Origin: Rhea pennata
Taxonomy: Eukaryota > Chordata > Aves > Rheiformes > Rheidae
Assembly: GCF_028389875.1 (NCBI RefSeq)
Contig: NC_084687.1
Span: 1,514,611 to 1,578,610, forward strand
DNA length: 64,000 nt
Direction: 5' to 3'
Shown here: one piece after another, positions 48,931 through 49,720 of the stretch
Layout: each line of letters starts with the position of its first letter
Position numbering within the stretch: the stretch's first letter is position 1
The notes under the pieces: model-generated
Databases searched by the model: none
The model's input: only the letters and a program-made list of their open reading frames with translations
Told to the model about the DNA's origin: nothing
Translations under genes and position numbers: made by a program

Positions 48931-49720
48931 TTTGCTGGGCTTGCGGACGGGGGGCTCGAACCCGCGAACTTGAGCGCCGCGCCGCCGCTACACGCTGCCG
49001 AGGTGCGCCCCACGCAGAGCGGGGCACGCCGGAAGCTGTAGTCCCGCGGCGGAGAAGGGCAGCTGTGCCGGGAGCTGTAGTCACGCTGCGGAGGGAGCGG
49101 CCATGCCGGAAGCCGTAGTCGCGGGGCACGCCGGGAGCTGTAGTCCAGTGGCAGAGGACGCAGCCGTGCCGGGAGCCGTAGTCGCGGGGCACGCCGGGAG
49201 CTGTAGTCCCGCGGCGGCGGGGCTGGCGCGGGCCATGGCGGCGGCCGGGGCGCAGTCGGGCGGCGCGGGGCGCTCCAAGGTGGCACCAAGCGTGGACTTC
49301 GACCACAGCTGCTCGGACAGTGTCGAGTACCTCACTCTCAACTTCGGGCCCTTCGAGACGGTGCACCGGTGGCGCCGCCTCCCGCCCTGCGACGAGTTTG
49401 TGGGGGCCCGGTGAGCGGCGGCGGCGGCGGGTGGGGAGGCGGCGGCGGTGGCGTCGTCCTGGCGGCTCCTGACCGCTGCTCTTTGCCGCCCGCAGGCGCA
49501 GCAAGCACACCGTGGTGGCCTACCGCGACGCCATCTACGTCTTCGGTGGGGACAACGGGTAAGGCCGCGGCGGGGCCGAGGGCAGCGGGCCCGGAATACA
49601 GCCCTGCCCGCTGCCCGCTCAGCCACCTCTTCCCTCTCCCTCCCACCTCGCAGGAAGACGATGCTGAACGACCTGCTGCGCTTCGACGTGAAGGACTGCT
49701 CGTGGTGCAGGTGGGCTGCG
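48930..49720 (+). promoter_or_regulatory. LZTR1: LZTR1 CpG-island promoter
   Basis: CpG- and G+C-rich block surrounding LZTR1 exons 1-3. It lacks an evident TATA box and carries the ZNF143-type array just upstream of the start codon. The transcription start most likely lies within or just after the array (about 49020-49230). Confidence 0.8.
49024..49208 (-). promoter_or_regulatory. Six tandem ZNF143/THAP11-type elements
   Basis: Six 20-bp copies lie at 49024-49043, 49063-49082, 49101-49120, 49126-49145, 49164-49183 and 49189-49208. Read on the - strand they are like GACTACAGCTCCCGGCGTGC. This matches the ACTAYRNNNCCCR / ACTACAATTCCCAGCATGC element known to bind ZNF143 and the THAP11-HCFC1 complex at housekeeping promoters. 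All share one orientation. End-to-end spacings are 39, 38, 25, 38 and 25 bp, so copies 3-4 and 5-6 form a duplicated 63-bp unit. Copies 1 and 3 read CCGGAAG instead of CCGGGAG, creating an ETS-like core. Factor binding is inferred from the motif. Confidence 0.85.

Follow-up and report, generated by a model that had tools for sequence, protein, structure and literature searches.

Six tandem elements of the M4 class stand directly upstream of the LZTR1 start codon; three look like composite THAP11/ZNF143 sites and three look like the THAP11 half alone. We suggest, with a probability of about 0.7, that these elements are bound by THAP11 and HCF-1, with ZNF143 joining at the composite sites, and that they drive steady LZTR1 transcription. 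The array is likely a strong landing pad for the two housekeeping regulators THAP11 and ZNF143. LZTR1 itself is a dosage-sensitive regulator of RAS and is associated with Noonan syndrome and schwannomatosis.

The window, by which we mean the whole 64-kb stretch of DNA that was analysed, contains IPO9, an importin gene whose exons lie within 6649-44942, and downstream of it, in the same direction, LZTR1. The first coding exon of LZTR1 was placed by alignment to the human protein, by splice sites and by identity to bird LZTR1. Splicing of the window yields 324 residues of LZTR1, which share 99.7% identity with the emu protein (P0006) and 99.1% with that of the budgerigar (P0001), and the identity to kiwi (P0020) is 99.7% over 323 residues, confirming the gene assignment made in the earlier note. 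Near the N-terminus the protein reads SGG, as in emu, kiwi, tinamous and turtles, where many other birds have AGG. These very few residues point to a palaeognath bird as the probable origin of the DNA.

A 16-bp core, GCCGGRAGCYGTAGTC, occurs in six exact copies at 49028-49208, all in one orientation, with ACTAC on the minus strand. The elements and their surroundings are given below with their matches to the long M4 consensus RRACTACANNTCCCRRNRNRC (M4 long) and to the Staf/ZNF143 consensus YWCCCRNMATSCMYYRCR (Staf).

49019..49043, minus strand: copy 1, long (composite-like); core 49028-49043 plus 9-mer 49019-49027; M4 long 20/21, Staf 15/18
49067..49082, minus strand: copy 2, short (half-site-like); exact short M4; M4 long 19/21, Staf 12/18
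49105..49120, minus strand: copy 3, short (half-site-like), the weakest; M4 long 17/21, Staf 12/18
49121..49145, minus strand: copy 4, long (composite-like); 9-mer 49121-49129 plus core 49130-49145; exact short M4; M4 long 21/21, Staf 17/18
49168..49183, minus strand: copy 5, short (half-site-like); exact short M4; M4 long 18/21, Staf 12/18
49184..49208, minus strand: copy 6, long (composite-like); 9-mer 49184-49192 plus core 49193-49208; exact short M4; M4 long 21/21, Staf 17/18
49083..49145, no strand assigned: first 63-bp unit; 22-bp spacer, core 3, 9-mer, core 4
49146..49208, no strand assigned: second 63-bp unit; 22-bp spacer, core 5, 9-mer, core 6
49235..49410, plus strand: first coding exon of LZTR1

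The six cores start, with 0 mismatches, at 49028, 49067, 49105, 49130, 49168 and 49193, giving start-to-start spacings of 39, 38, 25, 38 and 25 bp. No seventh site was found in the 64 kb with up to three mismatches allowed. At that same tolerance none of 100 whole-window shuffles reached six cores (mean 0.43, largest 3), and when the 700-bp island around the array was shuffled 500 times with dinucleotides preserved, the core did not occur and the M4 string occurred 0.02 times on average. The array (49019-49208) lies within a CpG island (GC 0.73, CpG o/e 1.01), and its last core ends 26 bp short of the LZTR1 ATG at 49235. The earlier claims of six co-oriented elements and of a position just 5' of the LZTR1 start are therefore upheld.

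Several details of the earlier description need correction. The feature had been begun at 49024; its true start is 49019, copy 1 also carrying the 9-bp extension GCGGGGCAC. The pattern proposed for the elements, ACTACA...CCCGGC(A/G)TG, is too narrow, each of its parts being present in only four of the six copies: CCCGGC is replaced by TCCGGC in copies 1 and 3, ACTACA by ACTACG in copies 3 and 5, and the final (A/G)TG by ACA in copy 2 and ACG in copy 5. The alternation of 38 and 25 bp is real, but it had been limited to the last four copies, and copies 2-6 all show it. A 63-bp unit was also correctly recognized; however, that it spans six helical turns is a consequence of how long the duplicated unit is, and adjacent copies are out of phase. 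A helical face is common only to copies 63 bp apart, namely copies 2, 4 and 6 in one set and copies 3 and 5 in another, with copy 1 in neither. We therefore rejected phasing as evidence of selection, and likewise the single orientation as independent evidence, since the copies are duplicates of one another.

What the earlier description overlooked is that the copies fall into two classes. The 9-mer GCGGGGCAC precedes copies 1, 4 and 6 on the plus strand in identical form and occurs nowhere else in the window; copies 2, 3 and 5 have no such extension. With the 9-mer, copies 4 and 6 read GGACTACAGCTCCCGGCGTGCCCCGCG on the minus strand. Sites were scored against published consensus strings, those for long M4 and Staf being taken from PMC5006282, and by both of these copies 4 and 6 are the top two places in the window. 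Of 1000 simulated islands, four reached a long M4 score of 19, the highest obtained, and three a Staf score of 17. The short M4 string ACTAYRNNNCCCR is exact on the minus strand in four of the six copies, the only four occurrences in 64 kb, and RRACTAYR is matched at 8/8 in copies 1, 4 and 6 and at 7/8 in copies 2, 3 and 5. The 9-mer and the consensus scores together lead us to divide the array into sites that look composite (1, 4 and 6) and sites that look like the THAP11 half alone (2, 3 and 5).

Other strings discriminate less well. Because of the GC-rich centre (GCT) of the copies, the Ronin string CTGGGARWTGTAGTY is matched at best at 13/15 (copies 2, 4 and 6), a score equalled by four chance places elsewhere in the window; 19 window places reach at least 12/15, five of them in the array, and copy 3 falls below 12. 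Against a Ronin consensus of the motif-library type, the six copies are the top six places in the window (15-17/20, next best 14), which we treat as secondary evidence. By the SBS2 27-mer (PMC7154149), copies 4 and 6 score 18/27 and lead the window by one letter only. The ZNF143 core, given as TGGGA in PMC11118474, is found in none of the six copies, four of which have CGGGA and two CGGAA. As TGGGA is missing and the Ronin string stands at chance level, THAP11 is the better supported reader of the array, and ZNF143 is likely to bind at the composite sites only. With this restriction, the ZNF143/THAP11-type assignment of the earlier note agrees with the published consensus strings.

Comparison with known systems places the array among M4, or Ronin-binding motif, promoters. 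It shares with them the short M4 string (exact in four of six copies), the long consensus (exact in two of six) and a gene start in a CpG island. It differs from them in having CGGGA for TGGGA and a GC-rich centre that holds it to 13/15 of CTGGGARWTGTAGTY, and in having six copies, the human genes described in PMC5006282 having mostly one and DFFA two. Work in human cells has indicated that ACTAYR is the part of M4 through which THAP11 binds and brings in HCF-1, and a reporter with the THAP11 half mutated was at least twofold less active (PMC5006282). The other half was reported to be bound by ZNF143 or, in lymphoid cells, by Ikaros, which halved reporter activity, and a mutation of the 3' GCG was used to weaken Staf action in a reporter (PMC5006282). 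Copies 4 and 6 resemble the Staf/ZNF143 site (SBS) of the tRNA-Sec promoter at 17/18, including the 3' GCG; unlike it, copies 2, 3 and 5 reach only 12/18 and no copy has TGGGA.

A promoter with many such motifs, which the earlier note did not mention, is already known. The Ronin hub promoter of mouse Gsk3a has 11, and in mouse stem cells motif number goes with the number of promoter loops, so far as a correlation (PMC10329844). The LZTR1 array likewise has many motifs, six cores, in one promoter, arranged here in tandem with a 63-bp unit and with sites of two classes. We regard it as a well-ordered new example of this kind of promoter. Among the literature matches listed for LZTR1 with ZNF143 or THAP11, nothing was relevant by title, LZTR1 is not mentioned among the 20 listed of another 92 papers, and no such arrays appeared among those listed for homotypic clusters, chicken and multiple copies.

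The earlier note had asked whether orthologous promoters contain the motif. We viewed other species through LZTR1 protein models that extend upstream of the usual start, and back-translated these leaders; applied to the leader of the window itself, this approach finds each of the six copies again. The 159 proteins fetched (120 listed of 571 matches, plus 39 more) yielded 22 leaders of at least 8 residues, nine of them of at least 30. A perfect back-translation of the Ronin string CTGGGARWTGTAGTY is possible in six of these nine, namely in the olive python, in three mammal-like sequences and in two models that represent a single budgerigar locus. Shuffled leaders equalled this in 0-2 of 400, and among the coding bodies of LZTR1 the string is allowed in 0 of 151. 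The match stops at 13/15 in three rodent-like leaders, and a full 15/15 is absent from all 13 of the shorter ones. For the shorter M4 string, shuffled leaders equal the real ones in 7-82 of 400, and the cross-species support thus comes from the longer string.

In the three mammal-like leaders the motif is placed at -84 from the ATG. In the budgerigar, two complete avian cores fit the leader, at -87 and -48; they are 39 bp apart, as are copies 1 and 2 of the window. One Malurus elegans model (P0003) starts with CSP nine codons before the ATG, matching the read of the end of the last copy. The budgerigar leaders are gene predictions rather than transcripts, as other budgerigar models (P0004, P0005, P0030, P0031 and P0037) have other leaders. 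The motif thus appears, through predicted proteins, to be allowed twice in the parrot promoter and once each in the python and mammal-like ones, so that, within the leaders covered, the lack of the motif in orthologous promoters that the earlier note named as refuting was not observed, and the simplest reading is that an old amniote LZTR1 promoter motif has been multiplied to differing numbers by lineage. A separate observation concerns a protein that is not LZTR1 (P0159, E 0.67), in which three stretches allow the avian core at 16, 15 and 16 of 16; none of 300 shuffles reached three core-compatible stretches, and this is perhaps another promoter with several copies.

The tandem duplication proposed earlier is clear. 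The two 63-bp units are contiguous and alike at 53 of 63 bases, and Tandem Repeats Finder reports period 63 over 49067-49215. Such a structure is what would be expected of a neutral GC-rich minisatellite, in which slippage or unequal exchange multiplied an ordinary M4 site and no more than one or two of the copies are of functional importance. The two copies of the budgerigar model and the single copy of most human M4 genes (PMC5006282) fit that explanation as well. However, we consider it unlikely, given where the units differ. Between them, 9 of 22 spacer bases differ, compared with 1 of 41 in core, 9-mer and core (Fisher p 1.6e-4; this split was noticed before being tested, and p is 0.004 when the 22-bp stretch is allowed anywhere on the circle). 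Similarly, when the three short copies are compared, variation affects 12 of 23 columns in the spacer and 2 of 16 in the core (p 0.017). In the alignment of the units, four of the nine differences in the spacer are transversions, so CpG decay alone is insufficient to account for them. The constancy of the sites against the change in the spacer speaks for selection on the sites and against the recent expansion that had been suggested, which we do not favour.

A second explanation is that copies 1 and 3 act mainly through an ETS factor. The ETS/GABP core is approximately CCGGAAGT, with a usual consensus that ends in T. Copies 1 and 3 have TCC in place of CCC, so that the plus strand reads CCGGAAGC, and the CCGGAAG noted earlier in these copies is indeed present; of its three occurrences in the 64 kb, two fall within the array. 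ETS motifs also overlap ZNF143 sites in human promoters (PMC11118474). Against this, only two of the six copies are affected, each by one G-to-A change from the others, and the last base is C rather than the T of the consensus. Both copies moreover retain the THAP11 module (RRACTAYR 8/8 and 7/8), which in copy 3 is ACTACG. We find a mainly ETS-driven role for these copies quite improbable, and the proposal that the array mixes two factor classes, which rests on CCGGAAGC in two of six copies, appears weak.

That the repeat is coding, with LZTR1 starting at the in-frame ATG 49103 and the array forming part of a repetitive 44-residue N-terminal extension, is hardly credible. In its favour, no stop codon interrupts the frame between 48974 and LZTR1, 63 bp make 21 codons, and a similar leader is translated in budgerigar models P0001 and P0002. 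Against it, long open frames are common in DNA with a GC of 0.73, the ATG equivalent to 49235 is the start in 22 of the 120 listed models, all 22 of them named as birds, and the leader alone as query matched no protein at E up to 10. Moreover, the same core gives AGSCS in copies 1, 2, 4 and 6 but PEAVV or PGAVV in copies 3 and 5, so that it is the DNA, not the peptide, that is kept.

Some further features of the region were observed. The ATG at 49103 lies inside copy 3, 44 codons upstream of 49235, and automatic gene models may pick it as the start. A minus-strand tRNA-like remnant (48945-49003), about 70 bp upstream of copy 1, contains the sole B-box match in the window, GGTTCGAGCCC at 48952-48962 (pattern GGTTCRANNCC); neither ARAGORN nor Rfam calls it. 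We also rejected an RNA gene, for a tRNA or otherwise, at the array, as ARAGORN finds none in the window and Rfam none in the window at gathering score, with no Rfam match in 48700-49500 at E up to 1. Ahead of its copies, the leader of the budgerigar reads GTRTRD, compatible with the letters of the tRNA-like remnant, which may be common to the budgerigar and the bird of the window. The start of IPO9 is likewise a CpG island (GC 0.72 over 6001-7000), and, in contrast with LZTR1 in the same window, it is without an M4 motif (6400-6810). Open frames at 8735-9183 resemble a fragment of a CR1-type retrotransposon reverse transcriptase, as would suit a bird or another sauropsid.

Our preferred reading, an activating array bound by THAP11/HCF-1 and at its composite sites by ZNF143, would work as follows. 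By analogy with mammalian work, THAP11 would read the ACTAYR module and tether HCF-1, and ZNF143 would read the CCC...CGCG half. More copies would give higher occupancy, making the array a high-occupancy activator platform, and the promoter may become an anchor for contacts with other housekeeping promoters. As the last core ends just 26 bp ahead of the ATG, the array is probably transcribed in part, and to judge from this spacing some copies probably lie in the leader. ZNF143 over a start site can repress (PMC11118474), and ZNF143 on the leader copies could also hold initiation back, a possible built-in brake. Historically, copy number would have risen through duplication of the 63-bp unit, with selection holding the sites.

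The finding may be useful in several ways. Duplicated units can outline the footprint of a factor, the part kept alike between the repeats here being the composite site. In addition, a tandem two-class array whose copy number seemingly varies by lineage would provide a natural test of motif number against promoter output or contacts. A bolder version of our proposal, which we hold only as an outside speculation, is that the bird LZTR1 promoter is a Ronin hub in which a mixed array of composite and half sites, of lineage-specific number, sets the dose of LZTR1 as an adaptor that controls RAS, the composite sites activating and the copies nearest the ATG braking initiation. If that were true, the two copies of the budgerigar and the six found here would form a natural ladder on which LZTR1 dose could be compared with copy number.
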